Source of the DNA: Diphasiastrum complanatum
Lineage: Eukaryota > Streptophyta > Lycopodiopsida > Lycopodiales > Lycopodiaceae
Direction: 5' to 3'
DNA: 64,000 bases
Assembly (NCBI GenBank): GCA_029204225.1
Contig: CM055102.1
Span: 977,863 to 1,041,862, forward strand
The notes below the pieces were generated by a model, which saw only the letters and a program-made list of their open reading frames with translations, did not search any database and was not told the DNA's origin. Positions 4,831 to 59,686 of this stretch are shown one piece after another. Both the position numbers and the translations under genes were made by a program. Numbering within the stretch: the first letter of the stretch is position 1; every line of letters begins with the position of its first letter.

Positions 4831-4831
4831 T

Positions 4832-5090: not shown

Positions 5091-5883
5091 GATTTTGACT
5101 CCTTATGAAGTTTGGTATGATTTGGTATCACCACTAATGTTGAAGAGGAGGGGCTGCCATCATCCTCTAATGGACAACCCACTGGTTCTTCAAGTGAATA
5201 GCCCATAATTCATCAAGAGGAGCAAATTTATGAAGAGGAACAGCCTGTCGAAAACTTTGGACAGCATAGTCCGATTTCAGAGCACTTTGGATAGCAAAGT
5301 GTTGACGGTTTAGATCACTTTGGACAGCAAAGCATTGATCAAAGTAAGGCTATTGGACAACCTAAACCAGTCCCTAAATGGCTGTTGCAGACTTTGCAGG
5401 ACAACAAAGTGAACCGCTTCTATGAAGGGAAGACTCGTGCCTCATCTAAATCAATAGAATTTGCTGATTTTTCTGATTTTGCTCTTACGTCTATTGAGGA
5501 TAGTGCAATAGAACCCGTTTTTTATGAGCAGGCTAGAGGAGTGAAATGTTGGGAGGACGGATGAAAGAGGAGTATGACTCACTCATAAAGAACCAAATAT
5601 GGGTTCTTGTTGATCTTCCACATGAAAAGAAAACAATTGGCTGTAAATGGGTTTATAAGATCAAGTACAAGTCCGATGGTACTGTTGAAAGGTACAAGGC
5701 AAGACTTGTTGCCAAAGGTTGTGCGCAAAAGGAGGGCATTGATTGTGACGAAACTTTTGCACCTACTGCATGAATAACTACTGTAAGGATAGTCACTACT
5801 TTGGCTGCCCATCATGGTTGGCGTATGCACCAACTTGACATAAAGACAGCCTTCCTCAATGTTCATCTTAATGAGGAAGTTTA
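5091..5883 (+). pseudogene. Copia I integrase tail and reverse-transcriptase N-terminus
   Basis: The first part (to about 5545) is the poorly conserved integrase-RT hinge. It has stop codons and three imperfect copies of a CACTTTGGACAGCAAAG-like motif (5255-5335). From 5546 the RT begins: WVLVDLP, then [27 protein letters not shown] and DETFAP, ending in a TGA. The reading resumes through the TAFLN block, holding the first catalytic Asp region, to EEVY. There the sequence is interrupted at 5884 by element A. The RT continues at 11622. Stops and the insertion make it inactive. Confidence 0.85.
5879..5883. other. Left target-site duplication of element A (GTTTA)
   Basis: GTTTA at 5879-5883 is repeated at 11617-11621, directly outside the TG...CA ends of A. 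A 5-bp duplication is the normal product of LTR-retrotransposon integrase. It sets the element ends to the base. Confidence 0.92.
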
Positions 5884-6538
5884 TGTGAAAAATACAGATC
5901 CTAAGTGGATCTAAACTCCAAGATCATTGGCTTGAATGCTTGCACTCCAAACTACATAAGCTAGGAATTGGCAACACATTCTATGCTACCTAGAATGCAA
6001 AGAACTTGATCAAAAAGCATTTATCACAAATGGAAACTTCCATAAACATCAAGTGCGGCCCAAAATAGCATTATACAGTCCATAATACATCAGCCTATCA
6101 CTTTTGGAAAGCACCTAAGATCATACACAATAGCTTGAAGACAATACACACAACAATGCTCTCAATGGAGGAAGAAACAATGACAATGATCTATTGATCT
6201 CAATGAAGCATACAAAAGGTTTCTCCAACCTGTTCTCCACGACTTCCCTACTATTTATGGATGAGGAAGATGACTCTCTCTCCTCTCTCTAGAAGGTACT
6301 TGACCCTAGATATTCCCTATATAGGAAAAATAGCTAAAAATGGCTTATATGACCAAAATACATCAAAATGGTCTCATTTTGAAGGGTATGAAGTTTGACA
6401 CTTCATCATACTGAAAAAATACAGTAAATAAAAACATTGTGGCCTGGTTCACACGTGTGAAACTCCAGAACCAAAACTATTTACAATTTTAGTCAATTTA
6501 GGCCTCAAACTAGCTAGGAAATGTTGACAATTTTCACA
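5884..6538 (-). repeat. 3' LTR of element A
   Basis: Bounded by TG and CA, 655 bp, and matching 10962-11616 with one visible difference (C versus T in the CCAGAAC[C/T]AAAAC region). It contains the palindromic TTTCACACGTGTGAA motif with a CACGTG core, and a CTATATAG TATA-like box. Confidence 0.95.
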
Positions 6539-7026
6539 CTCCCTCTTCAACATTGGATGCTAGTTTCAACATAGTCTTTGAGCACATTCCAAGATTAGAT
6601 CTATGCATTAAATATAGGTCCTTTCCCAATGGTTTGGTGAAGATATCAGCCACACACTCCTTTGAAGAGACATGTTGAAGCTCCACCTCTTTGGCAATGA
6701 CTTGATCTCTCACAAAATGGTGAGCAATCTCAATGTGCTTGCTCCTTGCATGAAAAACAGGATTGCTTGCCAAGCTTTGGGCTGAAAGGTTATCACAAAG
6801 TATGATTGGAGTCTTCTCTGGTTCCAGCAAGTGAAGATCCAATAACATCCTCTTGATCCAAAGAATCTCCTTGGTGCATGTTGTTAATGCCTTGTACTCG
6901 GCTTCGGTGGAAGATAGAGAGATAGTTGGTTGCTTCTTTGATAGCCATGAGACCACTCCATCTCCAAGATAGATTGCAAAGGCACTTGTTGACTTCCTAT
7001 CCATTTGATCACCTGCAAAATCTGAA
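6534..7026 (-). pseudogene. Element A RNase H domain (3' end of pol)
   Basis: Downstream of the second deletion junction (near 7027-7031), the minus strand encodes MDRKSTSAF, SSTEAEYKAL and LCDN, the Copia RNase H block with its catalytic Glu and a catalytic Asp. It then runs to the C-terminus ending EEGV. The first RNase H Asp lies at the deletion edge. The frame differs from that of the main gag-pol ORF, because the 97-bp deletion shifts it. The stop codon is read from the first bases of the 3' LTR. RNase H would remove the RNA template during cDNA synthesis. Confidence 0.9.
6539..6548 (-). other. Polypurine tract of element A
   Basis: On the minus strand GAAGAGGGAG abuts the 3' LTR. This is the expected plus-strand DNA primer site. 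The same ten bases occur at B 31277-31286. Confidence 0.88.
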
Positions 7027-7046
7027 TCAACTCCTTGGTGCTTGCT

Positions 7047-9788
7047 TTAGCCCATACAAACTCTTTTGGAGATAGCACACATGATTAGGCTCATCATGTG
7101 AAACATAGCCCTCGGGTTGCTCCATGTAAATATCTTCATCTTTGCCATGGGTGCAAAGGTCTCATCATAGTCAATACCATATTCTTGAGCATACCCCTTT
7201 GCCACCAACCTTGCCTTGTACTTGTTGATTGATCCATCTTGATTTGTCTTGATCTTGAAGATCCACTTACAACCAATTGCCTTCTTGTCCTTTGGAAGCT
7301 TTACCAACCTCCATGTGTTGCTTTTGATGAGTGCTTGATGCTCATGATCCATGGCTTGGATCCATTCCTTCTTTTGAATTGCTTCACCTACACAAGTTGG
7401 TTCATCAAAAGAGGTAAGAAAAGCAAAGTTAGAGTTGTCCACCACTTGCTTTCCTTTTTCATCATAGGTTAGCCTTGATGGCTTAGCCCTTTGCCTTTGA
7501 GTCTTCCTTGAAGTTTGCTTTGGAGTGGCATCTCCATCTTCATCCAAGACATCTTGCACATCATGATGATTAGTAGGCACATCAACATCAACACCAACAA
7601 CATTGGAAACATTCTCTTCATGAAAGATGACATCCCTACTTATGACAACTTTCTTTGTAGAAGGAATGTACACTTTGTAAGCCTTGCTTACTTCACTATA
7701 GCCAACAAACACACCCTTCTTTGATGAAGGATCTTCTTTAGTTCTATCATCAAGTGTGATATTGACAAAACATGTACATCCAAAGATCCTACAATGCTTG
7801 ACACTCGGCCTTCTACCATAAAGAACCTCATGAGGAGTTTTACCATCCAAGGAAGCACTTGTCCATCTATTACATAGATAGTTAGCACATGCTAAAGCTT
7901 CCCCCCAAAAAGACTTAGCAAGATTAGCATGTAGTCTCATTGCCTTGGCACATTCACAAAGGGTTCTATTCTTCCTCTCGGCCACTCCATTCTGTTGTGG
8001 AGTCCTAGGACTAGACATCTCCCTCTTAATCCCATGTGCTATACAAAAGTCTTTGAACCTATTTGAGGTGTATTCCCCTCCATTATCAGATCTTAAGCAT
8101 TTGATCTTTGTATTGAATTGGTTTTCCATTTCATTCTTGAACTTGACAAATGCAGCAAACACTTCATCCTTACTTTTAAGAAGATAGATCCAAGTATACC
8201 TACTAAAGTCATCAATGAAAGTTGCATACATCTTTGCCCCACCATTGCTAGTTGTACTAGAAGAATGAATATCAGAATGCACAAGTTGAAAAGCTTCTTT
8301 AGATCTAGAAGTAGATCTAGAATAAGCAAGTCTATGAGATTTGGACAAGGCACAATGTTCACAAACACTATTGTTTGCAACAAGACTTTTAGGGAGACCA
8401 AGAACAAGCTCTTTCTTTGCCATTACCTCCAAAGATTTGAAGTTGGGATGGCCCAACCTCTTGTGCCAAACTTCTTGGTTTGTCAATTGCTCCCTAGCCA
8501 TACATCCTTCATGATTAGAGATCACACATGAATCAAGCTTGAAAAGTTTACCATGCCTCCTACCTTGAGCAATCAAGGATCCACATTTACTTATCAAACA
8601 TGCATCTCCAATGAACTCCACATCAAGTCCTTTGTCAATCATTTGACTTACACTAAGCAAATTCTTAGTGATTGAAGGAATGTACAAAACATTTTCAAGA
8701 TTTGCTTTCCTATTTGTTGAAAGGGAAATAGGAATAGTGCCTATGCCTTTGATGTCACATTGACCATCATTTGCAGTGTAGATGATGTTACTTTCTCCCT
8801 CATAAGACAATAAGGATGTAAAGTATTCCTTATGTCTTGTCATGTGAGATGAGGCTCCACTATCAATCCACCAAGGATCATTATCATCTATGTTGGCTAA
8901 CAAACTTGAAGTCATAACAAGTGATTCACATATGTTATGTTTTTCCTCATCTATTGTAAGATTTCCTTGCCTCTCTCCTTGCTCTCTTTTCTTCTTATAA
9001 CATTCATTTGCAAAATGACCTTTTATCCCACAATAAAAGCACTTGAACTTTGACTTATTGTTCTTAGTAGAAGAGGAAGAGGAAGAGTGATCATCATGAT
9101 CAAAGTTACCACCTTTGGACCATTTCCCTTTGCCTTTACCTTTGCCCTTGAATTTGCCTTTTGTGAAGAAAGCCTCTTCACCTCCACCTTGCAAGGATGC
9201 ACCATCAAGCTTTGATTGCAACCTATGTTCTTCAGCCAATACGATTTCTTGCAAGTCAACCACACTTGGCAAGACTCTTTGAATGGCAAAACTTTGCACA
9301 AGGTTAGCATGTTCATTTAGCAAACCATTCAACATAACTTGGACTATTTCACCATCTTTTATGTTCTCATCAATGCATGCTAAATCATCACTTAGGGACT
9401 TAACTCTCAAGATAAATGCATGAGCACTTTCACCCTCTCTTTGCCTACTAGAAAATATTTGTCTCCTTAGGGTCAATACCCTAGATGTGGACTTTGATTC
9501 AAAGAGCTTCTTTAAGGCATTCCATGCCTCACTTGCACTTTGACACTTTCCAACTTCCTTGAGAAGTTCATTTGTAACATTCATTTTAATGATATGAAGA
9601 GCCCTTTTGGCCTTCTTATCAAACCTTTGTTGCTCTTGAAGTGTGAGAGGTCTCTCTTCAATTTCTGCAACTATGTCCATGAGTTCATTCAACTCAAGTA
9701 AGGACTCCATCCTCACTTTCCAAGTAGAGTAGTTTGATGAACTCAACCTTTCACTAGACTCTAGCATGATCCCACCATTGGAAGCCAT
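7047..9788 (-). pseudogene. Element A gag-pol, truncated within reverse transcriptase
   Basis: Translation from the ATG at 9788 gives 913 residues. In order they hold Gag (with the NYSTWKVRM start), a basic KGKGKGKGKW stretch, one CCHC knuckle (CFYCGIKGHFANEC), protease (WIDSGASSHM), the HHCC integrase zinc region, the integrase core with DNGGEY and the QQNGVAERKNR Glu block, and the RT N-terminus to DETFAP. At about 7139-7142 a 97-bp deletion shifts the frame, and the last 33 or so residues are out-of-frame nonsense. The RT palm Asp residues are lost. About seven residue differences separate it from B in the shared part. Gag, protease and integrase still look intact, so this copy might supply particle proteins even though its RT is dead. 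Confidence 0.93.
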
Positions 9789-10949
9789 GATTCTAATGTT
9801 TCTTCAACTTTTAGGTTCTGTCCTAAAGCACTTAGCACTCACTTTTCTCTCAGCAAATGATAGATAAAGAGATCTATTGAAGATTTAGGACCCTAAAACA
9901 CTTCTATCTTGAACCTAGATGGTTTCCAAGCATAGAAAGGAAGATTGAAACACATGCAACACTTTGCACACACTAAGAATGGATTACAAAATCAAACCAA
10001 CCTGAACACACTCTTGCTTAAGCTCTCAAACTTTCTAGCAAGTGACCAAATCAAGTTATGGTGTGAAGAGTTACTTGCATTCTTAGAAAATACCCAAAAC
10101 TAGGATGCCAAGATTACCTAGTAATGAACAAACTTGATCAACATATGATCAACACACTAAGATATTGATTCAACCTGTAAAACCACATGTAAACCACACT
10201 TCTAAAAGTTTATAAACTCCAGCAAGTGATAAATACAAGATTTAGAGGTGAATGAATGAGCACACTTAGTGAATCACAAGACTAGCTTCACTATCTTGTC
10301 AAATCTTGGTGTTTAGATGTAGATCTAAGATCACTTCACATGAGAATGTTCCTCAACCTGTTAAGAACCTGAAAACACACTTGCATAATGGTTAACACCT
10401 TCCAGCAAATGCTCCAATCAAATTACATAAGGAGAGTTACTTACATGCTCAACAAAGTACACCAAAATTTATGCCAAAATTGATGACAATCTTTACAATA
10501 TGCTCTTCACAATGGAGCTTACAATATGTTCACCCAAAAAAGGGGATCTTTCATCCAAATGGGAGCTTTGCTCAGCCTTTAGGAGAATTACAACTCACTC
10601 AAAAGAGCATTTGTCATCCACTTAAGGAGAAGTTTCATCCACTTAAGGAGAGTGTTCATCCAAGAATGGAGATTGTCAACAATAGGATTGAAAAGAACAT
10701 TGTTAGTATTGAATATGCACAAGCCTCACAATCACAAATGATTAGGTGTTATGATCTGATCCAAAATAGTTTCTTTTCAGCCTCTGATCTTCAATAGACC
10801 TGAAATATGCTTTTGATCCACAAGTTCAACTCACAAAACAAAGGTTAGTAAGATTTGATCAACAAAGCAATGCAAAATCATGCTAGAACTTGATCAAACA
10901 TCCAAATATCACCAAAAATGGAATACTTACTGTAAATAGAAGCCAACCA
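9789..10949 (-). other. Untranslated leader of element A
   Basis: About 1.16 kb between primer site and gag ATG, colinear with 26177-27337 of B. An open frame on the opposite strand (10471-10797) is not conserved as protein and is ignored. Confidence 0.8.
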
Positions 10950-10961
10950 GCTCTGATACCA
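10950..10961 (-). other. Primer-binding site of element A
   Basis: On the minus strand this reads TGGTATCAGAGC, directly after the 5' LTR end with no gap. It is complementary to initiator tRNA-Met. Confidence 0.93.
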
Positions 10962-11616
10962 TGTGAAAAATACAGATCCTAAGTGGATCTAAACTCCAAG
11001 ATCATTGGCTTGAATGCTTGCACTCCAAACTACATAAGCTAGGAATTGGCAACACATTCTATGCTACCTAGAATGCAAAGAACTTGATCAAAAAGCATTT
11101 ATCACAAATGGAAACTTCCATAAACATCAAGTGCGGCCCAAAATAGCATTATACAGTCCATAATACATCAGCCTATCACTTTTGGAAAGCACCTAAGATC
11201 ATACACAATAGCTTGAAGACAATACACACAACAATGCTCTCAATGGAGGAAGAAACAATGACAATGATCTATTGATCTCAATGAAGCATACAAAAGGTTT
11301 CTCCAACCTGTTCTCCACGACTTCCCTACTATTTATGGATGAGGAAGATGACTCTCTCTCCTCTCTCTAGAAGGTACTTGACCCTAGATATTCCCTATAT
11401 AGGAAAAATAGCTAAAAATGGCTTATATGACCAAAATACATCAAAATGGTCTCATTTTGAAGGGTATGAAGTTTGACACTTCATCATACTGAAAAAATAC
11501 AGTAAATAAAAACATTGTGGCCTGGTTCACACGTGTGAAACTCCAGAACTAAAACTATTTACAATTTTAGTCAATTTAGGCCTCAAACTAGCTAGGAAAT
11601 GTTGACAATTTTCACA
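10962..11616 (-). repeat. 5' LTR of element A
   Basis: 655 bp, TG...CA, next to the GTTTA target duplication at 11617-11621. As the upstream LTR on the minus strand it carries the element's promoter: the TATA-like CTATATAG lies near 11395-11402 and the CACACGTGTG palindrome near 11530. Confidence 0.95.
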
Positions 11617-24374: not shown

Positions 24375-25509
24375 AAAATTGTAGGCTTTAGCCCCAGCTA
24401 CTCTGTCAAGGAAATTTTCCGTAAAGGGTAAAGAAAAATGATCCTTTTTGGTGACTGCATTTAGCGCCTTCAGATTCACACAAATTCGCATTTTGCCATT
24501 CTTCTTGGATACTATAACTATCGGCGATACCCATTTAGTGTGCTCGATTTCATAAATGAAATCTGCGTCTAACAGCTTCTGCAACTCCTACTTGATCAGC
24601 TTTGTGTAGTTTGGGTTGCAACGGTAGTATCGACTAACCTTGGGAACTATTCCATCCACCAAGGGTATGGTGTGTTGGACTACTATTGGTGGAATGCCCT
24701 TCAGATCAATATAATTCCAGGCAAAATGGTCCTTGTATGCCACCAACAATGATCGTAGCCTTTTGAATTGTGTGGGTGTTAACTGCCCTCCCACATGCAC
24801 TATCTTTTCTTCTTCACCTGGCTCGGCAAGGTTCATTGGTTGTGTTCGCGCAGGTCCTTCATACACTTGTTCCACTGGTGTCTGACTTTGATCAGGTTCT
24901 CGCTGGGCTTGCGGCATCATAATTACCACGTCGTCAAAGGTGTAATTCTTGAAGGTTTCAAGCATCTCATGAACTGGTGCTCGTCGAGATTCCTCCTTCA
25001 ACATATTGATCTTGGCTCGACTGGTCATCTTTTGATTTTCCGTCATCTGATATGAGGATGACGTTGTATCCGAGTTCATCCTCATTGACTTTAAGGAGTC
25101 CAACACCTTTTCTTTGTCTCTTTTCGTCCAATCGGTGGATTCGTCCTTGTTGTCTTTCTTCAAAACTGGTGTGACATTCGTCTGGTGGTTGTGAATATCA
25201 ACATCCATTCTAGCTATAGCTTCTTCGGGCAGATCACTCCATCGGATCACCTGGTTGTAGCATTGCTTCAACTGGTTCTTCTTGTTCGCAGGTGCCCTTG
25301 GTGGATCTATTCTTGAAACTTTTGCCATAACAGATCTTTGAGGCGGTTGAGTTGGTACTTTCTTAATTCTGTAACAATCTGGGTCCATGTGTTGTAGGAC
25401 CTGCTCATCACTCAGTTCAACCTCCTTATTATAAGTCAGAGCATGTTGCCAAGGAACTAAATTATTGTCCACTGGGTTCTCAATAGGTTCCGCTGACAGC
25501 CATGCTACG
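24375..25509 (-). pseudogene. Gypsy D pol, linker and N-terminal half of reverse transcriptase
   Basis: Minus-strand frame from the B insertion site: NNLVPWQHALTYNKEVEL, then a charged linker (RSDLPEEAIARMDVDIHNHQ), FAWNYIDLKGIPPIVVQHTIP and VSRYYRCNPNYTKLIKQ. After one stop (near 24588) comes FIYEIEHTKWVSPIVIVSKKNGKMRICVNL, the start of a Ty3/Gypsy RT. It closely parallels C at 41815-42900. The match ends near 24375 at the first palm strand (AKAYNFF), before the catalytic FLDD block. RNase H, integrase and 3' LTR are missing. The upstream half of D is at 31942-33095, on the other side of B. Confidence 0.9.
25505..25509. other. Left target-site duplication of element B (CTACG)
   Basis: CTACG occurs at 25505-25509 and 31942-31946, flanking the TG...CA ends. 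Removing B and one copy joins the D reading frame across the site, as in the uninterrupted relative C. Confidence 0.93.
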
Positions 25510-26164
25510 TGTGAAAATTGTCAACATTTCCTAGCTAGTTTGAGGCCTAAATTGGCTAAAATTGTAAATAGTTTTGGTTCTGGAGTTTCACACGTGTGAA
25601 TCAGGCCACAATGTTTTTATTTACTGTATTTTTTCAGTATGATGAAGTGTCAAACTTCATACCCTTCAAAATGAGACCATTTTGATGTATTTTGGTCATA
25701 TAAGCCATTTTTAGCTATTTTTCCTATATAGGGAATATCTAGGGTCAAGTACCTTCTAGAGAGAGGAGAGAGAGTCATCTTCCTCATCCATAAATAGTAG
25801 GGAAGTCGTGGAGAACAGGTTGGAGAAACCTTTTGTATGCTTCATTGAGATCAATAGATCATTGTCATTGTTTCTTCCTCCATTGAGAGCATTGTTGTGT
25901 GTATTGTCTTCAAGCTATTGTGTATGATCTTAGGTGCTTTCCAAAAGTGGTAGGCTGATGTATTATGGACTGTATAATGCTATTTTGGGCCGCACTTGAT
26001 GTTTATGGAAGTTTCCATTTGTGATAAATGCTTTTTGATCAAGTTCTTTGCATTCTAGGTAGCATAGAATGTGTTGCCAATTCCTAGCTTATGTAGTTTG
26101 GAGTGCAAGCATTCAAGCCAATGATCTTGGAGTTTAGATCCACTTAGGATCTGTATTTTTCACA
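25510..26164 (+). repeat. 5' LTR of element B
   Basis: TGTGAAAATT...TTTTTCACA, 655 bp. Holds the promoter (TATA-like box at 25724-25730), the palindrome TTTCACACGTGTGAA near 25586-25600, and a purine-rich GAGAGAGGAGAGAGAG tract just downstream of the TATA-like box. Confidence 0.96.
25724..25730 (+). promoter_or_regulatory. TATA-like box in LTR B
   Basis: CTATATA in the middle of the LTR, at the place expected for the U3 promoter. The identical sequence is in the LTRs of A. Transcription start is inferred to lie some 25-35 bases downstream. Confidence 0.55.
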
Positions 26165-26176
26165 TGGTATCAGAGC
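26165..26176 (+). other. Primer-binding site of element B
   Basis: TGGTATCAGAGC, perfect complement of the initiator tRNA-Met 3' end, directly after the LTR. Confidence 0.95.
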
Positions 26177-27337
26177 TGGTTGGCTTCTATTTACAGTAAG
26201 TATTCCATTTTTGGTGATATTTGGATGTTTGATCAAGTTCTAGCATGATTTTGCATTGCTTTGTTGATCAAATCTTACTAACCTTTGTTTTGTGAGTTGA
26301 ACTTGTGGATCAAAAGCATATTTCAGGTCTATTGAAGATCAGAGGCTGAAAAGAAACTATTTTGGATCAGATCATAACACCTAATCATTTGTGATTGTGA
26401 GGCTTGTGCATATTCAATACTAACAATGTTCTTTTCAATCCTATTGTTGACAATCTCCATTCTTGGATGAACACTCTCCTTAAGTGGATGAAACTTCTCC
26501 TTAAGTGGATGACAAATGCTCTTTTGAGTGAGTTGTTATTCTCCTAAAGGCTGAGCAAAGCTCCCATTTGGATGAAAGATCCCCTTTTTTGGGTGAACAT
26601 ATTGTAAGCTCCATTGTGAAGAGCATATTGTAAAGATTGTCATCAATTTTGGCATAAATTTTGGTGTACTTTGTTGAGCATGTAAGTAACTCTCCTTATG
26701 TAATTTGATTGGAGCATTTGCTGGAAGGTGTTAACCATTATGCAAGTGTGTTTTCAGGTTCTTAACAGGTTGAGGAACATTCTCATGTGAAGTGATCTTA
26801 GATCTACATCTAAACACCAAGATTTGACAAGATAGTGAAGCTAGTCTTGTGATTCACTAAGTGTGCTCATTCATTCACCTCTAAATCTTGTATTTATCAC
26901 TTGCTGGAGTTTATAAACTTTTAGAAGTGTGGTTTACATGTGGTTTTACAAGTTGAATCAATATCTTAGTGTGTTGATCATATGTTGATCAAGTTTGTTC
27001 ATTACTAGGTAATCTTGGCATCCTAGTTTTGGGTATTTTCTAAGAATGCAAGTAACTCTTCACACCATAACTTGATTTGGTCACTTGCTGGAAAGTTTGA
27101 GAGCTTAAGCAAGAGTGTGTTCAGGTTGGTTTGATTTTGTAATCCATTCTTAGTGTGTGCAAAGTGTTGCATGTGTTTCAATCTTCCTTTCTATGCTTGG
27201 AAACCATCTAGGTTCAAGATAGAAGTGTTTTAGGGTCCTAAATCTTCAATAGATCTCTTTATCTATCATTTGTTGAGAGAAAAGTGAGTGCTAAGTGCTT
27301 TAGGACAGAACCTAAAAGTTGAAGAAACATTAGAATC
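26177..27337 (+). other. Untranslated leader of element B
   Basis: 1161 bases without a recognisable ORF, colinear with the leader of A. Repeated short phrases occur (CTTAAGTGGATGA twice near 26480-26510, and TTGCTGGA with nearby GAG at about 26720, 26903 and 27087). They suggest internal duplication. Packaging or translation-control signals may lie here, but none can be identified by eye. Confidence 0.75.
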
Positions 27338-30300
27338 ATGGCTTCCAATGGTGGGATCATGCTAGAGTCTAGTGAAAGGTTGAGTTCATCAAACTACTCT
27401 ACTTGGAAAGTGAGGATGGAGTCCTTACTTGAGTTGAATGAACTCATGGACATAGTTGCAGAAATTGAAGAGAGACCTCTCACACTTCAAGAGCAACAAA
27501 GGTTTGATAAGAAGGCCAAAAGGGCTCTTCATATCATTAAAATGAATGTTACAAATGAACTTCTCAAGGAAGTTGGAAAGTGTCAAAGTGCAAGTGAGGC
27601 ATGGAATGCCTTAAAGAAGCTCTTTGAATCAAAGTCCACATCTAGGGTATTGACCCTAAGGAGACAAATATTTTCTAGTAGGCAAAGAGAGGGTGAAAGT
27701 GCTCATGCATTTATCTTGAGAGTTAAGTCCCTAAGTGATGATTTAGCATGCATTGATGAGAACATAAAAGATGGTGAAATAGTCCAAGTTATGTTGAATG
27801 GTTTGCTAAATGAACATGCTAACCTTGTGCAAAGTTTTGCCATTCAAAGAGTCTTGCCAAGTGTGGTTGACTTGCAAGAAATCTTATTGGCTGAAGAACA
27901 TAGGTTGCAATCAAAGCTTGATGGTGCATCCTTGCAAGGTGGAGGTGAAGAGGCTTTCTTCACAAAAGGCAAATTCAAGGGCAAAGGTAAAGGCAAAGGG
28001 AAATGGTCCAAAGGTGGTAACTTTGATCATGATGATCACTCTTCCTCTTCCTCTTCTACTAAGAACAATAAGTCAAAGTTCAAGTGCTTTTATTGTGGGA
28101 TAAAAGGTCATTTTGCAAATGAATGTTATAAGAAGAAAAGAGAGCAAGGAGAGAGGCAAGGAAATCTTACAATAGATGAGGAAGAACATAACACATGTGA
28201 ATCACTTGTTATGACTTCAAGTTTGTTAGCCAACATAGATGATAATGATCCTTGGTGGATTGATAGTGGAGCCTCATCTCACATGACAAGACATAAGGAA
28301 TACTTTACATCCTTATTGTCTTATGAGGGAGAAGGTAACATCATCTACACTGCAAATGATGGTCAATGTGACATCAAAGGCATAGGCACTATTCCTATTT
28401 CCCTTTCAACAAATAGGAAAGCAAATCTTGAAAATGTTTTGTACATTCCTTCAATCACTAAGAATTTGCTTAGTGTAAGTCAAATGATTGACAAAGGACT
28501 TGATGTGGAGTTCATTGGAGATGCATGTTTGATAAGTAAATGTGGATCCTTGATTGCTCAAGGTAGGAGGCATGGTAAACTTTTCAAGCTTGATGCATGT
28601 GTGATCTCTAATCATGAAGGATGTATGGCTAGGGAGCAATTGACAAACCAAGAAGTTTGGCACAAGAGGTTGGGCCATCCCAACTTCAAATCTTTGGAGG
28701 TAATGGCAAAGAAAGAGCTTGTTCTTGGTCTCCCTAAAAGTCTTGTTGCAAACAATAGTGTTTGTGAACATTGTGCCTTGTCCAAATCTCATAGACTTGC
28801 TTATTCTAGATCTACTTCTAGATCTAAAGAAGCTTTTCAACTTGTGCATTCTGATATTCATTCTTCTAGTACAACTAGCAATGGTGGGGCAAAGATGTAT
28901 GCAACTTTTATTGATGACTTTAGTAGGTATACTTGGATCTATCTTCTTAAAAGTAAGGATGAAGTGTTTGCTGCATTTGTCAAGTTCAAGAATGAAATGG
29001 AAAACCAATTCAATACAAAGATCAAATGCTTAAGATCTGATAATGGAGGGGAATACACCTCAAATAGGTTCAAAGACTTTTGTATAGCACATGGGATTAA
29101 GAGGGAGATGTCTAGTCCTAGGACTCCACAACAGAATGGAGTGGCCGAGAGGAAGAATAGAACCCTTTGTGAATGTGCCAAGGCAATGAGACTACATGCT
29201 AATCTTGCTAAGTCTTTTTGGGGGGAAGCTTTAGCATGTGCTAACTATCTATGTAATAGATGGACAAGTGCTTCCTTGGATGGTAAAACTCCTCATGAGG
29301 TTCTTTATGGTAGAAGGCCGAGTGTCAAGCATTTGAGGATCTTTGGATGTACATGTTTTGTCAATATCACACTTGATGATAGAACTAAAGAAGATCCTTC
29401 ATCAAAGAAGGGTGTGTTTGTTGGCTATAGTGAAGTAAGCAAGGCTTACAAAGTGTACATTCCTTCTACAAAGAAAGTTGTCATAAGTAGGAATGTCATC
29501 TTTCATGAAGAGAATGTTTCCAATGTTGTTGGTGTTGATGTTGATGTGCCTACTAATCATCATGATGTGCAAGATGTCTTGGATGAAGATGGAGATGCCA
29601 CTCCAAAGCAAACTTCAAGGAAGACTCAAAGGCAAAGGGCTAAGCCATCAAGGCTAACCTATGATGAAAAAGGAAAGCAAGTGGTGGACAACTCTAACTT
29701 TGCTTTTCTTACCTCTTTTGATGAACCAACTTGTGTAGGTGAAGCAATTCAAAAGAAGGAATGGATCCAAGCCATGGATCATGAGCATCAAGCACTCATC
29801 AAAAGCAACACATGGAGGTTGGTAAAGCTTCCAAAGGACAAGAAGGCAATTGGTTGTAAGTGGATCTTCAAGATCAAGACAAATCAAGATGGATCAATCA
29901 ACAAGTACAAGGCAAGGTTGGTGGCAAAGGGGTATGCTCAAGAATATGGTATTGACTATGATGAGACCTTTGCACCCGTGGCAAAGATGGTAACTATTCG
30001 AATCCTAATCTCTCTTGCAACTCTTTATGATTGGGATATGTGGCAAATGGATGTTACTAATGCCTTCTTGAATGGTGATCTTGAAGAAGATATTTACATG
30101 GAGCAACCCGAGGGCTATGTTTCACATGATGAGCCTAATCATGTGTGCTATCTCCAAAAGAGTTTGTATGGGCTAAAGCAAGCACCAAGGAGTTGGTATG
30201 CTAAGCTCAATTCCTTCTTACTTTCTCAAAACTTTGTTATGAGTGAGTATGATCATTCTCTCTACTTTAGATTGAATGAAAATGATATCACTTTACTTTT

Positions 30301-31291
30301 GATCTATGTTGATGACATTATCTTAAGTGGTGGTAACAATCTAGATATAGATGAAATCAAGATGGCACTCAAAAGAGAGTTTGAAATTCAAGATCTTGGT
30401 AAACTTCATTATATCTTAGGAATAGAGATTATTAGAACTTCTAAATCTACATTCATATGTCAAGAAAAGTATGTTAACTCTATTCTAAAAAGGTTTCATA
30501 TGGAAGATTGTAAAGTTGTTTCTACTCCTATGGAATCAAATGTAAAGCTAACTACAAGAAGTAATGAAAGATCCTTCAAGGACATTACTCTCTATAGAAA
30601 GCTAATAGGATCTCTTATATGGTTAACCATCACAAGACCTGATCTAAGCTTTGTGGTTGGTAAACTAAGTCAATTTATGCAAGATCCTAGTGAGGCTCAT
30701 TGGAAGCTAGGAAAGAGAGTACTTAGATACATCTCGGGATCTAGAGATTTTGGCATCTTGTATGGAGGTACTACACCTAACCTTTGTGGATTTTCAGATT
30801 CAGATTTTGCAGGTGATCAAATGGATAGGAAGTCAACAAGTGCCTTTGCAATCTATCTTGGAGATGGAGTGGTCTCATGGCTATCAAAGAAGCAACCAAC
30901 TATCTCTCTATCTTCCACCGAAGCCGAGTACAAGGCATTAACAACATGCACCAAGGAGATTCTTTGGATCAAGAGGATGTTATTGGATCTTCACTTGCTG
31001 GAACCAGAGAAGACTCCAATCATACTTTGTGATAACCTTTCAGCCCAAAGCTTGGCAAGCAATCCTGTTTTTCATGCAAGGAGCAAGCACATTGAGATTG
31101 CTCACCATTTTGTGAGAGATCAAGTCATTGCCAAAGAGGTGGAGCTTCAACATGTCTCTTCAAAGGAGTGTGTGGCTGATATCTTCACCAAACCATTGGG
31201 AAAGGACCTATATTTAATGCATAGATCTAATCTTGGAATGTGCTCAAAGACTATGTTGAAACTAGCATCCAATGTTGAAGAGGGAGTGTGA
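27338..31291 (+). CDS. Copia Gag-Pol polyprotein, full length
   Basis: 1317 residues, the usual size for a Copia polyprotein. Order: Gag (about 1-270) with a basic KGKGKGKGKW stretch and a CCHC knuckle CFYCGIKGHFANEC (250-263); protease DSGA with catalytic Asp309; integrase zinc region with H442, H447, C476 and C479; integrase core with Asp506, Asp568 and Glu604 (35 residues between the last two, DD35E); reverse transcriptase with Asp905 in the QMDVTNAFL block and Asp992-Asp993 in YVDDI; RNase H with Asp1154, Glu1195 and Asp1232. The gag-protease-integrase-RT-RNase H order defines Ty1/Copia. The ATG at 27338 matches the start in A and gives a conserved MASNG start. The final Val codon and the TGA stop overlap the 3' LTR (which starts at 31287). 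The particle assembles in the cytoplasm, and integrase then inserts cDNA in the nucleus. No frameshift separates gag from pol, so relative Gag dosage must be set another way. Confidence 0.97.
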   Translation: MASNGGIMLESSERLSSSNYSTWKVRMESLLELNELMDIVAEIEERPLTLQEQQRFDKKAKRALHIIKMNVTNELLKEVGKCQSASEAWNALKKLFESKSTSRVLTLRRQIFSSRQREGESAHAFILRVKSLSDDLACIDENIKDGEIVQVMLNGLLNEHANLVQSFAIQRVLPSVVDLQEILLAEEHRLQSKLDGASLQGGGEEAFFTKGKFKGKGKGKGKWSKGGNFDHDDHSSSSSSTKNNKSKFKCFYCGIKGHFANECYKKKREQGERQGNLTIDEEEHNTCESLVMTSSLLANIDDNDPWWIDSGASSHMTRHKEYFTSLLSYEGEGNIIYTANDGQCDIKGIGTIPISLSTNRKANLENVLYIPSITKNLLSVSQMIDKGLDVEFIGDACLISKCGSLIAQGRRHGKLFKLDACVISNHEGCMAREQLTNQEVWHKRLGHPNFKSLEVMAKKELVLGLPKSLVANNSVCEHCALSKSHRLAYSRSTSRSKEAFQLVHSDIHSSSTTSNGGAKMYATFIDDFSRYTWIYLLKSKDEVFAAFVKFKNEMENQFNTKIKCLRSDNGGEYTSNRFKDFCIAHGIKREMSSPRTPQQNGVAERKNRTLCECAKAMRLHANLAKSFWGEALACANYLCNRWTSASLDGKTPHEVLYGRRPSVKHLRIFGCTCFVNITLDDRTKEDPSSKKGVFVGYSEVSKAYKVYIPSTKKVVISRNVIFHEENVSNVVGVDVDVPTNHHDVQDVLDEDGDATPKQTSRKTQRQRAKPSRLTYDEKGKQVVDNSNFAFLTSFDEPTCVGEAIQKKEWIQAMDHEHQALIKSNTWRLVKLPKDKKAIGCKWIFKIKTNQDGSINKYKARLVAKGYAQEYGIDYDETFAPVAKMVTIRILISLATLYDWDMWQMDVTNAFLNGDLEEDIYMEQPEGYVSHDEPNHVCYLQKSLYGLKQAPRSWYAKLNSFLLSQNFVMSEYDHSLYFRLNENDITLLLIYVDDIILSGGNNLDIDEIKMALKREFEIQDLGKLHYILGIEIIRTSKSTFICQEKYVNSILKRFHMEDCKVVSTPMESNVKLTTRSNERSFKDITLYRKLIGSLIWLTITRPDLSFVVGKLSQFMQDPSEAHWKLGKRVLRYISGSRDFGILYGGTTPNLCGFSDSDFAGDQMDRKSTSAFAIYLGDGVVSWLSKKQPTISLSSTEAEYKALTTCTKEILWIKRMLLDLHLLEPEKTPIILCDNLSAQSLASNPVFHARSKHIEIAHHFVRDQVIAKEVELQHVSSKECVADIFTKPLGKDLYLMHRSNLGMCSKTMLKLASNVEEGV
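31277..31286 (+). other. Polypurine tract of element B
   Basis: GAAGAGGGAG directly before the 3' LTR. It is also coding, giving the Glu-Glu-Gly near the C-terminus. Confidence 0.9.
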
Positions 31292-31941
31292 AAATTGTCA
31301 ACATTTCCTAGCTAGTTTGAGGCCTAAATTGGCTAAAATTGTAAATAGTTTTGGTTCTGGAGTTTCACACGTGTGAACCAGGCCACAATGTTTTTATTTA
31401 CTGTATTTTTTCAGTATGATGAAGTGTCAAACTTCATACCCTTCAAAATGAGACCATTTTGATGTATTTTGGTCATATAAGCCATTTTTAGCTATTTTTC
31501 CTATATAGGGAATATCTAGGGTCAAGTACCTTCTAGAGAGAGGAGAGAGAGTCATCTTCCTCATCCATAAATAGTAGGGAAGTCGTGGAGAACAGGTTGG
31601 AGAAACCTTTTGTATGCTTCATTGAGATCAATAGATCATTGTCATTGTTTCTTCCTCCATTGAGAGCATTGTTGTGTGTATTGTCTTCAAGCTATTGTGT
31701 ATGATCTTAGGTGCTTTCCAAAAGTGGTAGGCTGATGTATTATGGACTGTATAATGCTATTTTGGGCCGCACTTGATGTTTATGGAAGTTTCCATTTGTG
31801 ATAAATGCTTTTTGATCAAGTTCTTTGCATTCTAGGTAGCATAGAATGTGTTGCCAATTCCTAGCTTATGTAGTTTGGAGTGCAAGCATTCAAGCCAATG
31901 ATCTTGGAGTTTAGATCCACTTAGGATCTGTATTTTTCACA
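31287..31941 (+). repeat. 3' LTR of element B
   Basis: 655 bp, TG...CA, one visible difference from the 5' LTR. Its first bases, TGTGA, complete the last sense codon and supply the stop codon of gag-pol. Confidence 0.96.
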
Positions 31942-40907: not shown

Positions 40908-43588
40908 TTGCACGAACATGAACCACCTTTTTACATGGTGGAGCCTGAGGAACCACACACTGAAAGGCTCACACTTCTATTGTCAAGTCGTGTTAGTTTA
41001 CCACTCGGAGAACTATTGCGGATTGTACCACAAGCTAAAAGCCTTCTAGCTGAATGGGTCAAAGCGGATGAGGATCCAATAGCGCCTGAGCCCATACATT
41101 GTAAGGGCTATGAAGAAACAAGTAATGTCCTCCACATCGGAGCAGTATGGGAAAGTGAGGAACACAACATCACTTTGTCAATCAAACACAAGAGATACGA
41201 GGACGAGGCGATAGTGGTAGATGGAGGATTGGGTGTCAATTTGATCTCCACTACTTTGTACAAAAAATGGGATTTACAAGGATTGAAGCCAACAAGATTC
41301 GCCATCAAGCTAGCTGATCAATCCTGTTTAAAACCAAAAGGTGTGGTTGTCGATATCCCTGTAAAGATAGCAGACATGCAGTTTGTGATTACTTTTGTAG
41401 TCATGGATATTCCTAAATCTCCATATGCATACCGTGTTTTATTGGAAAGACAGTGGTTGAGAACTGCGCAAGTAGTACACAACTGGGGTATGGGGAAACT
41501 CACCTTCGAGAACATAGAGCAGGTTGTAAAGGTTGATCCAACCACATGGGCGGTGAAACCTATTGCACCCAAAGCTTATGACGGATCATCCACGACAGAT
41601 CACGCGATTGATCGCCCAAGGGCAGCCAAGGGGGGTCACTATCATTCAGAGATGGATGTCGTGATATGGATGGATGCATTAGCAACTATTGACTGCCAGA
41701 CATGTCAATATGAATTAGATCCGGAACCTAGTACACCTTCACCCAAGTTTTACACTATGGACACACCCATCACATTTGGGGTGAATATGATAAACGTAGC
41801 ATGGCTGCCAGTGGAACCTATTGAGAACCCAGTGGACGATGATTTGGTCCCTTGGAAACATGCTCTAACTTATAATAAAGAGATTGAGCTAATTGATGAA
41901 CAAGTCTTACACCACATGGACCCAGATCGTTACGGAACCAGAAAGTACCAGCTCAACCACCGCAAAAGTCTGCTATGGCGAAAGTCTCAAGGGTTGATCC
42001 ACCCAAGGCACCTACGAATAAGAAAAATCAGTTGAAGCTGCGCTACAACCAGGTGATCCGTTGGAGTGATCTACCCGATGAGGCAATAGCTACAATGGAT
42101 GTGGATATTTGCAACCATGAGGCGAATGTCACGGCAGTCCCGATGAAAGACAACAAGGATGAATCCACCAAGATGACAAAAAAGAGCAAAAAGAAAGTAT
42201 TAGATTCCTTGAAGTCAATCAAGATGGACTCAGATACAGCGTCATCTTCTACACAGGTGACAGAAAATCAAAGAATGACCAATCGGGCTAAGATCAATAT
42301 GTTGAGTGCCAGTTCACGAGATGCTTGAGACTTTCAAGAACTATACCTTGGACAACGTGGTAATCATGATGCCGCAAGCCCAAAGAGAACCTGATCAAAG
42401 TCAGGCACCGGCGGAACAAATCTTCGAGAGACCTGCACGAACACAGTCGATGAACCTTGTCGAGCCAGGTGAAGAAGAAAAGATAGTGCATGTGAGGGAG
42501 CAACTAACACCCACACAGTTCAAGAGACTACGATCGTTGTTAGTGAAACATAAAGACTGTTTTGCATGGAGTTATAGTGACCTGAAGGGCATTCCACCAA
42601 CAGTAGTCCAGCACACCATACCCTTGGTGGACGAAACAGTCTCCAAGGTAAGCCGTTATTACCGCTACAACCCGAATTATACTGAGCTGATCAAGCAGGA
42701 GTTGCAAAAGTTGATGGATGTAGATTTCATCTATGAAATCGAGCACTATCACCGATAGTTATAGTACCCAAGAAGAACGACAATGCAAATTTGTGTGAAT
42801 CTGAAGGCGCTAAATGCAGTCACCAAAAAGGACCCTTTTCATTTACCATTTACGAAAAGTGTCCTCGACAAGGTAGATGGCACTGAAGCCTACAGTTTCC
42901 TAGATGGCTTTAGCGGCTACAATCAGGTGAAGATAGCCCCCCAGGACCAACACAAAATAGTGTTCGCCATGGAATGGAGAACCTATGCCTATAAAGTGAT
43001 GCCATTCGATCTTTGCAATGCCCCAAGCACTTTCCAGCAAGTCATGCAGGTGGCATTCAAAGATTATTTGCAAAATTTTTTGGAGATTTTCTTGGACGAT
43101 CTATACGTGCATGGACCAGATTCAGAACACTTATGCAACTTGAGAAGGTGTTACAAAAATGCCATGAATACCAGATCTCCCTGAATCCAGAAAAATGTCA
43201 ATTCTGGGTGACACATGGCTTGATTCTCGGCCATATAGTGTCAAGACACGGGATCGCCACAGATCTATCTAAGATCAGGATCATTGTTGATCTACCACCA
43301 CCGGGGACGATCCGCAAGGTCTACATTTTCATGGGTCATGCTAACTATTATAGGATCTTCATTCTTGATTTTGCGAAGTTAGTCCAACCAATTTACAAAC
43401 TCACAACGGATCCACATTGGAACGAGGAAGCCCTAAAGGCTTTTCAGAAGCTTAAGGATGCATTGGTTTCAGGACCAATCTTACGCCCACCCAATTGGTC
43501 CATTGAGTTCCACGTGCATACGGACGCATCGAAGTATGCAGTTGGAGCAGTCTTAACCCAGCCAGGTGAACACAAAAAGGATACCTGA
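40908..43588 (+). pseudogene. Gypsy C pol: protease, reverse transcriptase, start of RNase H
   Basis: First ORF (40908-42035): protease-like block AIVVDGGLGVNLIST, with DGG in place of DSG/DTG, a variant known from plant Tat-type Gypsies. It is followed by the FENIEQVVKVDPTTW region that D also carries. A frame change near 41980 leads to a charged linker, and another near 42300 to the RT fingers (LKGIPPTVVQHTIP). A third near 42755 leads to the palm (ICVNLKALNAVTKKD, then FLDGFSGYNQ, and IFLDDLYVHG with catalytic Asp codons at 43095-43100). A fourth lies at about 43140, leading to the thumb/connection (NPEKCQFWV, ILGHIVS, MGHANYYR) and RNase H start HTDASKYAVGAVLTQPGE. It ends with TGA at 43586-43588, just past the junction to unrelated DNA. 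Confidence 0.9.
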
Positions 43589-44654
43589 AAAGTCAAAGAT
43601 TGTAGATATAGATACTTTTTTATTGACACGAGTGTTAATTTAGATGATTGTTTTGATTTTGATCCTGTTCGAAATAGGGCTACTTTTATAGGCCCTAGAA
43701 CACCCACTACTCTTTTTCCTTCTGATAAATCTTTGATCACTTTGCCTACTTATAATATAGATAATAATTCCTTTTTGACAATATCAGATATATCGGATCT
43801 TTTTTACTTCACTGAAGCTGAGACTCTTTGCATTTTGAGCAAAGAGCTTAATGAATTTTCGAATATAATTGATTTTGATGTTGATGATCTTCTCCCTGGT
43901 GTTGACAATGTATATTATGATACGTTTTATTCAGGGAAAGATTGCTTGAAAATGGTTGTGGAGGAAATGTGCAACAAAGAAGATGATCTACCTTCTGAGG
44001 AGGAGTTTCTTAGAATCCAAAGTCAACTTGGTTTTCCACAGCCAACTGTCCATTCACAAACAGTATTGACATCAAAAGGTGGACATACTATTGATGGAGA
44101 GACAGTAATCAGAGAAGACAAAGCCGAATGCGTAAGTTTTTGTCTCTTATCAAGTACTAGTAGATTTGTTATGTCATATTCTATATTGGAGCTTACTTTG
44201 TTTTTTTTCATTTCAGAAAACAATTTTCCTTGATGATTTCGCAATTTGTCGAGGAGGGCAGAGATGTTCTGCGGGAGAATTTTCAAGAGATCATGCACTC
44301 GGGCACTATCTCAAGTCCTTCAAGAATAATGAGATAAGTGTTGCCCATTCAAAGTTTCATCAACATGGTAAAACTATGATTATGGCAATCAAGGCACTGT
44401 CTCATTTTCTTGGAGGACATAATTGTAATAAGGTGCATAAAATAATTTTTGTAAAGAAAACTATTGCGTTTAAAATTTTAGGATATGGACTAGTGAATTT
44501 CATGCTCAGATCATCTCATTTTGCAGTGTGTGCTGCTTATGTTGATCTGAGTAAGCATGAAAACTATGAGCTATTGGATCCATACGAAAGAAGAAAATTG
44601 TTGCATGATTCTAAGTTGCAACTTTCAATGGAAAAAATATTGGAAGCAGATTAG
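43589..44654 (+). CDS. Unrecognised two-exon protein gene, convergent with a transposase-like gene
   Basis: Open from 43589 through exon 1 to 44131 (tgc^GTAAGT), with an 85-bp intron 44132-44216 ending in a pyrimidine-rich TTTTCATTTCAG, and exon 2 from 44217 to the TAG at 44652-44654. The phase is kept across the splice, giving about 326 residues if the true start is near 43622-43700. No ATG opens the frame, so either an upstream exon or the original start was lost. Exon 1 is acidic (FDVDDLLPGVDN, NKEDDLPSEEEFL). Exon 2 is basic and aromatic (IFLDDFAICRGGQRC, DPYERRKLLHDSKLQL). I recognise no domain. No stop or frameshift breaks it, unlike everything around it. The stop lies about 57 bp from the stop of the minus-strand gene. 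A second protein of an uncharacterised DNA transposon is my preferred reading, by context only. Confidence 0.55.
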
Positions 44655-44711
44655 ATACTACTGAATTGTACTTTGTAAATATTTTTATTTAATATACAAA
44701 ATTTTATTGTG

Positions 44712-46410
44712 TGTCTATAGCCTACTGGCTTGTATAAATTTGCATGCTTTTTGAAATTTTTTATAATCCGTCGATTTTGTATTATGACGAATTTGGATTC
44801 TTCTGTAAAACCATTGGAAAAGTTGCAGTATATAGCCGTTTTTTGTGCTAGTCCCGCCATGTTGTGTACTTTTATGAAATGCTGCTCTTGCTTGCCAATG
44901 AGATTTTTCCATTCCTTGCGATGATCATATGCTAATACTTCCACTATTTCTTGCAAAGAATGTCGAATGATGTCGTAATATGTGCTGCATGTCATAAAAA
45001 CATAATCTAAATCAGTACCAAAAGTATCTAATTTAATTGCACATATTTGTCTAACGTAGTATAAAATCAAAATCTTACCATATAATGTGTTATATGATCA
45101 ATATCCCATGCACTTTGAACTGCATCCACAAATTCATTGGTTGTTTTCTGTATCATTTGAACATCATTATTTGAAAATTTATCTTTTCTCAAGTATTTCA
45201 CCATGTTGTCTAACTTTTTCCAAACTTCTACTTTGTGTATACGAGTAGAACCTTCTTCTTCGAAATCTTGAGTTGATGCAATAATTTCTTTTCAAGCCGT
45301 GTATTGAACCTTAGATTGTTTGCCATAATAATTTGATAAAAATCTTCGAGCTTTAGATCCTCCAAGCTCGGCTTGCATGGAATATTTCCTGTTGTACCTG
45401 ATAACTTGTCATCTTTTTTATTTTAACGTGACCTTTATGTGAGCTTGCTTTGGACAACACATCCTCTAATCTGGAAATAGCTTCCTTCGCAGAGGCCTCT
45501 GGCTCGAAATTCCATGCAAACAAGATGTGAAGATATATTATTTTTTCTATAATATGCACCTCCGCATGCAATGTATAGATATGAACATTGCGTAGAGAAA
45601 TCGGTAGTACAGGTTTCCAATTAGGATCTTCTCGATCTCTTGATATTCCTGTACTCCTTGTCATGTCTTTTGCTGTTTTCATGCAGTACAAACAAGGATG
45701 TTTAGAGTTAGCGCCATGAGATACATTGAACATACATTTTAATGTCTTTAGATCTCCTGCTAAATGCCATTCAATGTTGAAAGTGCCAATTCCAGGAATA
45801 TTGAGTGGAACTCTCTCCATGTGAATTTTTATGGTGGCAGGATATGATGTTCTACTAAATATCCATGAGAGAATGTTATGGTCTTCTTTCAGCACCTATA
45901 AGAGAATACAAAAACGTGATTAGCCTCATAATATTACCACAGAGAAGATTTTAGATATGAAATCCATATTCAAATGATTATCCCTATTTATTATGCGAAG
46001 GAACTGCTATACCTGAAATGCTGCCAACCATCAGATATCATTTTCTAATTGAACACTGAAATTGAGGCCTTCTGAGTCTTCTAAATTTGAAAGTGCTCCA
46101 TTCACAATTGTGAGATTGACTCTTTCCATTTTTCGTCCTTTTATAATATTAGACTCATCTAACTTGAGAACAACTATCAACTTGTTGTTGACATTCTCAT
46201 TTGTAATACCGTAAAAGTTTATGATGAATGTTAATAACTGATTAATGTCAATAAATAAATTGTTGGATTTGTTATATGCTAGACTTTCTCCTTTCGAGCA
46301 ATACACTTCATTGATATGAGATGGATTACCAACTATTATCATTATTCTTAGTCTGATCTTTCTATTTGAATAAGTATTCAGAAATGCAACAATTTCTAAA
46401 TTGTTTGCCT
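44712..46410 (-). pseudogene. Transposase-like multi-exon gene of unrecognised family, decayed
   Basis: Minus strand. Exon a (about 46410-46010) holds NRKIRLRIMIIVGNPSHINE and IVVLKLDESNIIKGRKM, then an in-frame TGA (near 46031) before WLAAFQ. An intron of about 115 bp follows (CAG^GTATAG...TCTTATAG^GTG). Exon b (about 45896-45062) reads VPLNIPGIGTFNIEWHLAGD, LKTLKCMF and GANSKHPCLYC. After a frame change near 45370 and a TGA near 45300 comes a helical segment with FVDAVQSAWDIDHITHYM. A second intron of about 70 bp follows (ATG^GTAAGA...GACATGCAG^CAC). Exon c reads HILRHHSTF, one TGA, then SSQGMEKSHWQARAAFHKST, ending at the TAG about 44712. The order of an early Asp, a GDLK Asp, a CxxC/His knuckle and a C-terminal MEKSH block recalls RNase H-fold transposases with a zinc insertion. 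That assignment is inference and I cannot name the superfamily. Confidence 0.6.
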
Positions 46411-58453: not shown

Positions 58454-59686
58454 TTAAGGGTGCTTGATGCAACCAGGGCCGCCAAAAAAGAAATAACTCC
58501 CCCAATCGGTAAAACCTCCTTGTTGAACTGAACTATTATAACAATTTGCATGGCTCACAAATTTATTTTGCAAAGTGGCATTGAAGAATGTTTTGGAGGA
58601 ATCAGCATATTTCACACATCTTTGGTAAGCTGCCAAAGGGTACCCTTTATCTGGAAATGCACCTGAGCCCATAGCCGTGGCTTTTTGGCCAGCTGGGTAG
58701 ACTTCGCCGCCCCATAGTAGGTTAGTAGCACTTGAGTTTAGAGCGGTTGTAGAGACTTGAGGGCCAATATCCAATGGTTGTGTCTGAGATGGACAACCAC
58801 CAACCAGGGATCATAGAGTCATAGGCCACGACGACAGAGATTTCTTGTTCTTTTTTAGTGTTGATATTGAGAGTAGACAAGGTTCCACCAAGCACCCACT
58901 TGTTGTTTATCTGAACAAATCCAGAACATGTCAGATCGTAGCACCCTGTGATGTTGTAGTTATCAGCAGTCCAATAGATGAAGAGACGTGGAGATAGAAG
59001 TGTTTTCAACTGTGGATATGAGTGAGACCCTTGCCAACCACCAACTTGCCAACCAACTTCGATAGTGTTGAGAGGTTGGCCAGCAACAAGCCAAAGTTGT
59101 GAAATGCTATAATCCAACTTGGGTTTTCCTAGCTTAGGTTTATTAACACTAAGAACCGCACGGGAACCTTTGTAAGGTGCTTTTGAAGATTGCAATCCCG
59201 TTGTAGCATATTCATGTGGCGTCTCGTGTAGCTGTAGAGTATGGAATTTTCTCAAAAGGGGTTGCTTAGGATCCCTTCGTTCAACTGGGATGCAACCTTC
59301 AGGGCATCCTCCATGCTCCCTTGCAAAAAGTTGTGGTGCAACCCCCTACTTTGAGATTCAATGTGATTTTGTTGCCAATTCATATATGATGGTGGTGATA
59401 TCTGGATGATATGACCTTTGAGGGTAGGATGGTGGGATGCAATCTGCTGTTCTATGCGGACACAATCTACCCAACTTCCATCTGAAACCTGGAATGACTT
59501 CATAGCTGGACCATGCCTTATAGTGTTGGTGTTGTCTGTGTAAGGCTGTAGTCTTCTTTTTCTTGAAGCTTGTTGCAGATTTCTATTTTGCGATGACTCT
59601 ACCAGTAGTAATAGTTGAATATATATGGCTACAAGCCAATACAAACTCCTTGCTTGAGAACTGGATACTCCTCTCCTAGACTCCAT
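58454..59686 (-). pseudogene. Neprosin-family (DUF239) secreted protein gene with two frameshifts
   Basis: Minus strand, about 410 codons, the usual family length. Order: basic N-terminus and a hydrophobic signal segment (LYWLVAIYIQLLLLV, residues about 15-29); activation-peptide domain (DUF4409: FQVSDGSWVDCVRIEQQIA, HPTLKGHIIQISPPSY); a GGCPEGCIPVERRD block; then the neprosin domain (HEYATTGL, TIEVGWQVGGWQG, SPRLFIYWTADNYNITGCYD, CSGFVQINNKW, SIGYWPSSLY-type, LLWGGEVYPAGQ, MGSGAFPDKG, GGPGC). The Glu residues in IEVGWQV (codon 59058-59060) and WGGEV (58703-58705) fit the two catalytic Glu of Nepenthes neprosin, a prolyl endopeptidase. Two frame changes break it. One lies at a 5-A run (plus strand 59325-59329), where one more base would restore the frame. 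The other lies between about 58725 and 58755. No intron is apparent. It may be a recent pseudogene, a retrocopy, or a good gene with assembly errors. The product would be secreted. Confidence 0.88.

Follow-up and report, generated by a model that had tools for sequence, protein, structure and literature searches.

The 64,000-nucleotide stretch of Diphasiastrum complanatum DNA analyzed here (the window) contains a site at which a truncated Gypsy element adjoins two genes that meet tail to tail. What are these genes, and do they belong to a mobile element? An earlier note on this DNA had proposed an unrecognized, probably two-protein DNA transposon. We consider it probable, at roughly 0.8, that the window holds a defunct internal piece of a cut-and-paste transposon of ~10.2 kb that is present in high copy number and has at least three genes and a putative transposase of the CMCT type.

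Gene layout of the window fragment

The fragment spans 43585..46346 and contains neither terminus of the element. When the complete copies EA and EB (see below) were compared with the window by blastn, the sole matches were at 43585-46331 and 43585-46340, respectively, with 94% identity, and the right break is visible when 12 copies are set side by side. The plus-strand gene consists of a 5'-truncated exon (43589..44131), which is an open frame without a known domain, a GT-AG intron in phase 0 (44132..44216, placed by sequence and frame arithmetic), and a last exon (44217..44654) that is open up to a TAG stop. The minus-strand gene begins with an exon piece (46013..46340) that carries the first Asp (VLKLDES) and whose 5' portion is gone at the break. 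An intron (45896..46012, GTATAG...TTATAG) leads to the middle exon (45079..45895), with the second Asp (GDLK), a CxxC motif, and a TLHA block. A further intron (44985..45078, GTAAGA...ATGCAG) precedes the last exon (44715..44984), with an HxxxxH motif, the position of a W that is TGA in the window, and the putative catalytic-E block SSQGMEKSH. The GDLK, CLYC, and GMEKSH motifs to which the earlier note had drawn attention are all in frame in this spliced gene, with GDLK to CLYC spanning 45683-45757. An alternative open frame for the last exon (TYYDIIRH...) was dropped; the copies conserve the GMEKSH frame.

The tail-to-tail arrangement of a two-exon plus-strand gene and a spliced minus-strand gene was thus read correctly at the outset, but the stop codons (44652-44654 on the plus strand and 44715-44717 on the minus strand) are separated by 60 nt rather than 57. 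Two of its frames run without a stop for 214 and 180 codons, in both cases farther than the longest run (164 codons) in 1000 first-order Markov simulations of the same stretch.

Both genes are damaged in the window. The plus-strand frame had been described as intact, but its start is missing: the window copy breaks off at 43585, and in copy B the start lies ~150 codons farther upstream, where the full-length gene begins with MSNFES (copy B/EB). The minus-strand gene has lost its 5' exons at 46340-46346, contains three in-frame TGA codons (46031-46033, 45292-45294, and 44925-44927), and shifts reading frame between ~45419 and 45369.

Complete copies and their ends

In the 1.74-Gb assembly, 40 scored places (of 6726 candidates; window included) match the fragment at 92-100%, and 28 of them reach query position 2743 (window 46331) or beyond. 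We fetched 20 stretches around copies for comparison. Other copies continue for ~1.45 kb past 46340 to a sharp right end, ...CCCATATTTTCTCTAATG, which is shared by 15 of the 20 stretches; the flanks of the right-end copies differ, save for those of L015 and L017, which are near-identical duplicates. The left end, CATTAGAGAAACTTAGAGCCC, was located by comparing copies A and B with L029, a deletion derivative. It was also present in four of seven further stretches (L014, L024, L025, and L030) and absent from the DNA fetched for the other three (L023, L027, and L028); that of the L027 element was found in a 21-mer search.

The element ends obtained from this comparison are CATTAGAGAAA...TTTCTCTAATG. 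The exact 21-mer of the right end occurs 796 times in the genome and that of the left end 626 times; the reversed control gave 0 for both. The complete element measures 10,239 bp in copy A and 10,345 bp in copy B (~10.24 kb). Its ends form an imperfect inverted repeat, with 10 matches in A and 11 in B over the first 11 positions and 28 and 32 matches, respectively, over the first 40. The termini are CATTAG...CTAATG, i.e., CA..TG. Mapped across the genome, the family therefore comprises many dispersed copies with sharp inverted-repeat ends, in keeping with the transposon that had been proposed.

The element is not limited to two proteins, as had been assumed, because longer copies carry at least three genes: a spliced minus-strand transposase gene, a convergent plus-strand gene, and a second minus-strand gene, whose histone H3-like product has a long extension.

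Several features of the complete copies are recorded as separate observations. Further open frames without a Pfam match lie near the left end (EA 917-1465 on the plus strand and 2053-2409 on the minus strand) and are possibly a fourth gene. Tandem repeats of ~580-600 bp, 80% identical, occupy EA 4507-5669 (L015 1980-3142) and overlap the beginning of the plus-strand gene. Left-end 21-mers are clustered at 48.4-50.3 Mb of contig C1, which accounts for 20 of the first 100 places listed, 17 of these 20 on the minus strand.

Insertion sites

Target duplications longer than 2 bp were found in none of 13 end pairs, of which five were read by eye (A, B, L029, L030, and L024) and eight by script (contigs 1 and 2); a 2-bp match was present in two pairs, and ends of different copies may have been combined in some of the longer pairs, which reach 14 kb. 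When the flanks of L030 were joined without any base added or removed, 40 scored places matched the joined sequence at 92-96%. Query and target spans were equal in length in the first 12 rows listed, with a few lower rows off by one base, and all four of the empty sites that were read align as one gap-free block over the junction. Thus, no base was duplicated or lost in the L030 insertion, and in this one tested case the element inserted without target duplication.

The putative transposase

In the joined exons of the minus-strand gene, the spacings are D-D 96, D-C 20, CxxC (C-C 3), C-H 204, HxxxxH (H-H 5), and H-E 20. The RAG1 counterparts are D708-C727 19, CxxC (3), C730-H937 207, HxxxxH (5), and H942-E962 20, and the D600-D708 spacing of RAG1 is 108. 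The D, C, H, and E positions compared are functional residues of RAG1. The last exon aligns without gaps with a RAG1 segment. The W of RAG1 falls at the TGA in the window copy. Among 22 aligned rows, D is conserved in 21, the second D in 21, the two C in 19 and 17, the two H in 20 and 22, W in 20, and E in 22. The spaced signature, defined after the alignment had been seen, was present with W included in RAG1, in 12 of the 22 rows, and in 0 of 100000 shuffles; similarly defined but without W, it was present in 14 of 22 rows and in 4 of 100000 shuffles. Rows that fail the signature are broken by gaps and mutations.

The transposase gene is under purifying selection. Its dN/dS over 22 rows was 0.47 in the middle exon and 0.17 in the last exon, and relative to an older, 72%-identical copy it was 0.19-0.25 and 0.06-0.09, respectively, the latter estimates being rough (dS 0.9-2.5). 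The middle exon was not found end to end in a single stop-free piece in any of 21 subjects, so that no working transposase copy was seen among them. The older copy (L032, oriented 2291-3335; 72% DNA identity) lies beside a younger member of the family, and a second subfamily of the transposon probably exists.

Homology searches with the transposase gave little. A phmmer search of PDB with the conceptual protein returned no RAG1 or Transib, and a PDB sequence search with the window fragment gave no relevant match. Pfam gave no match to RAG1 or to CACTA, Mutator, or hAT, the last three being superfamilies that the earlier note had weighed as alternatives. Smith-Waterman alignment with RAG1 did not reach significance (scores as high came from 124 of 2000 shuffles, and from 68 of 1000 with softer gaps), and single-sequence hhalign with RAG1 found nothing (probability 0.1). 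With a profile of the copies, hhalign placed the H-H-W-E block in the correct register of RAG1 (P 0.035), but the probability was exceeded by one of the 60 controls with shuffled RAG1. AlphaFold2 modeling of a 161-residue piece from the window was uninformative (pLDDT 36). Peptide scans of IMG/VR found no relatives; five degenerate GDLK-CxxC matches there were discarded as chance, four having stops inside the motif and one lying in a 31-codon frame.

The residue pattern suggests that the protein is a DDE enzyme of the RAG1/Transib-like (CMCT) type. The proposal of a DNA transposon with a minus-strand transposase of the putative RNase H type (DDE) is well supported by the multiple copies, sharp inverted-repeat ends, and purifying selection, and by the conserved D-D-E, CxxC, and HxxxxH residues.

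The accompanying genes

As had been noted from the sequence, the convergent plus-strand protein has no recognizable domain; Pfam found none. The mean pairwise dN/dS of its gene is 0.64 (21 rows). Beside the older transposase copy, which is itself a fragment, the plus-strand gene gave a match of only 12 aa (E 2.0), and a histone gene was not detected. This doubtful match, together with the missing histone, counts against strict coevolution of the genes. A RAG2-like identity for the plus-strand protein was considered and rejected, as Pfam found neither kelch nor any other domain in it.

To the left of the gene pair, copies A and B have a minus-strand frame whose product contains a histone fold (Pfam Histone, 3.2e-16 in B and 1.2e-15 in A). 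The protein matches H3.1 in PDB at 7.3e-16, with 37 of 77 residues identical, and the best 60 of its 174 PDB matches are all H3. The frame starts with MARTKSTARAITT in L030 and A and is ~380 residues long, with ~250 of these making up an extension for which the scanned piece gave no Pfam match; in L030 it has no intron and one stop. Part of the frame is matched in 13 of 21 subjects and the histone-fold part in 11 (A and L017 being near-duplicates). In the eight subjects without a match (W, L016, L018, L020, L026, L029, L032, and L033), the region is truncated, deleted, or outside the stretch fetched.

Relationship to known transposons

The CMCT clade comprises EnSpm/CACTA, Mirage, Chapaev, Transib, Plavaka, ESTA, Lanisha, and RAG1; its published hallmark, located from the second D to the E, is C(2)C plus H(3-4)H, and its elements have CA..TG ends in most cases and target-site duplications of 2-5 bp (PMC12730594). 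The element resembles the clade in its putative D, D, and E residues (21, 21, and 22 of 22 rows), in a CxxC and an HxxxxH between the second D and E, spaced as in RAG1, and in its CA..TG termini. It differs in that the 2-5 bp duplication is absent (none of 13 pairs above 2 bp, and a gap-free empty site), and it has no sequence homology detectable by phmmer or Pfam. We infer that it works as a CMCT transposase does, but we stop short of assigning it to the clade. To call the family unrecognized, as the earlier note did, agrees with the lack of a Pfam match but is too strong at the level of the clade, because the residue signature published for CMCT is present. Tao et al. listed 39 potential Transib-like proteins in plants.

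The element might belong to a lineage that already has a name, either Lanisha or a divergent EnSpm/CACTA. In that case, the transposase would be nothing new, and the histone would be a passenger in the family of this host only. We regard this as a substantial possibility, somewhat short of an even chance. Lanisha is counted in the CMCT clade and described as a cut-and-paste superfamily similar to EnSpm (Maumus, McDaniel, and Carey 2020, Repbase Reports, via PMC12730594). The CA..TG termini are those of the clade, and the capture of H3 by a fungal hAT element has been published (PMC6710886). However, the element has no Pfam-recognizable CACTA transposase, and it lacks the duplication of 2-5 bp described for the clade. 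Its H3 part, furthermore, is diverged (37/77 to H3.1), fused to an extension, and present as the fold part in 11 of 21 subjects. The authors of Lanisha reportedly work on mosses. None of these objections tells decisively against Lanisha, which is the likeliest named home of the element and may be the right one.

A different suggestion, which we put forward tentatively and with some doubt, is that the element represents an undescribed lineage that combines a RAG1/Transib-type transposase acting without target duplication, a dedicated H3 variant that perhaps marks or opens the chromatin of the element to counter silencing, and a convergent partner. If so, the transposon-encoded histone would be a working part of the element and not a captured passenger. 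A transposase spaced like RAG1 that leaves no target duplication would separate two traits that are usually joined in the CMCT clade.

The presence of a convergent gene beside a RAG1-like transposase is also relevant to how transposons with two genes, the ancestor of RAG1-RAG2 among them, arise. In RAGL transposons, the RAG1L and RAG2L genes are convergent and the target duplications measure 5 bp (PMC9435367; also PMC7204232 and PMC4411706). The element shares with RAGL/ProtoRAG the RAG1-like residue spacing and a transposase gene convergent with a second gene, but here the partner lacks a kelch or other Pfam match, the 5-bp duplication is absent, and there is a third gene, for a histone. The ends differ as well, those of RAGL transposons being RSS-like and those found here CATTAG.

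Possible role of the histone-like gene

One case of a histone in a DNA transposon is the capture of H3 by a fungal hAT element in Pseudocercospora and relatives (PMC6710886). Both elements are DNA transposons that carry a histone H3 sequence, but the H3 sequence here is strongly diverged, keeps the start of the tail, has a long extension, and sits in another type of transposon. Among the papers listed in a limited literature survey, there was no case of a plant transposon carrying a histone, which is weak evidence of absence.

The histone-like gene might be a nonfunctional passenger, derived from a host H3 fragment that was acquired once and has been copied while decaying. This is plausible, although it is not the outcome that we would expect. 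A complete frame without stops or breaks was found in none of the 13 matching subjects, and dN/dS in the C-terminal extension is 0.85 (11 rows), so constraint on the extension is weak. In contrast, the H3 part has a dN/dS of 0.48 in the same 11 rows, which indicates moderate constraint, and the ARTK start, histone-fold core, and extension of the frame are common to diverged copies. If the histone is functional, the element would be a rare DNA transposon that supplies its own nucleosome component, a possible way around silencing.

Proposed mechanism of transposition

If the window fragment derives from a cut-and-paste transposon, as we consider probable, then the transposase would bind the inverted repeats, pair the ends, and cut the element out. 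The ends would be joined to the target by a blunt or near-blunt cut, leaving no duplication. Least certain are the other two proteins: the histone-like protein might act on the chromatin of the element or of the host, favoring expression or transposition, and the plus-strand protein could be an accessory factor. Spy (PHIS group) is likewise described as a DNA transposon without target duplications but, according to its literature, has a transposase of another group.

The absence of a target duplication could also reflect a mechanism of another kind, such as rolling-circle transposition of the Helitron type or tyrosine recombination, in which the DDE-like protein would not be the recombinase. 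Helitrons are defined by TC...CTRR ends without inverted repeats and by a RepHel protein. The element, however, has inverted repeats at its ends (32/40 in copy B) and no CTRR right end, the ORFs scanned with Pfam include no helicase or tyrosine recombinase, and the RAG1-like putative catalytic and zinc residues are conserved; we therefore consider such a mechanism very improbable. The notion that both genes are ordinary single-copy host genes, which the earlier note had allowed for and which their splicing and long open frames might recall, is ruled out by copy number, with 40 scored places, many of them dispersed and with sharp ends.

The Gypsy junction and neighboring elements

The earlier note had placed an insertion at or near the point where the Gypsy element is cut. 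The junction (43585..43589) does exist, but it contains no end of the transposon and is therefore a truncation or rearrangement. The Gypsy element is itself also cut at the 43585 junction, inside its own RNase H region. The Gypsy/transposon chimera is found in three more places on the same contig with 99.6-99.8% identity, which suggests that it spread by local duplication and not by transposition of the fragment. Immediately past the position that corresponds to window 46728, the L008/L009 locus duplicates have Copia LTR-like sequence, which is absent there in the window.

The retrotransposons of the window and a neprosin-like frame suggest a plant genome. Two Copia-type elements (5883-11616 and 25509-31941) are 99.6-99.8% identical and lie in opposite orientation; a frame of 1322 codons (27323-31291) is open in one of them, whereas the other is interrupted. 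An open frame on the minus strand at 58722-59345 resembles a neprosin-domain protein.
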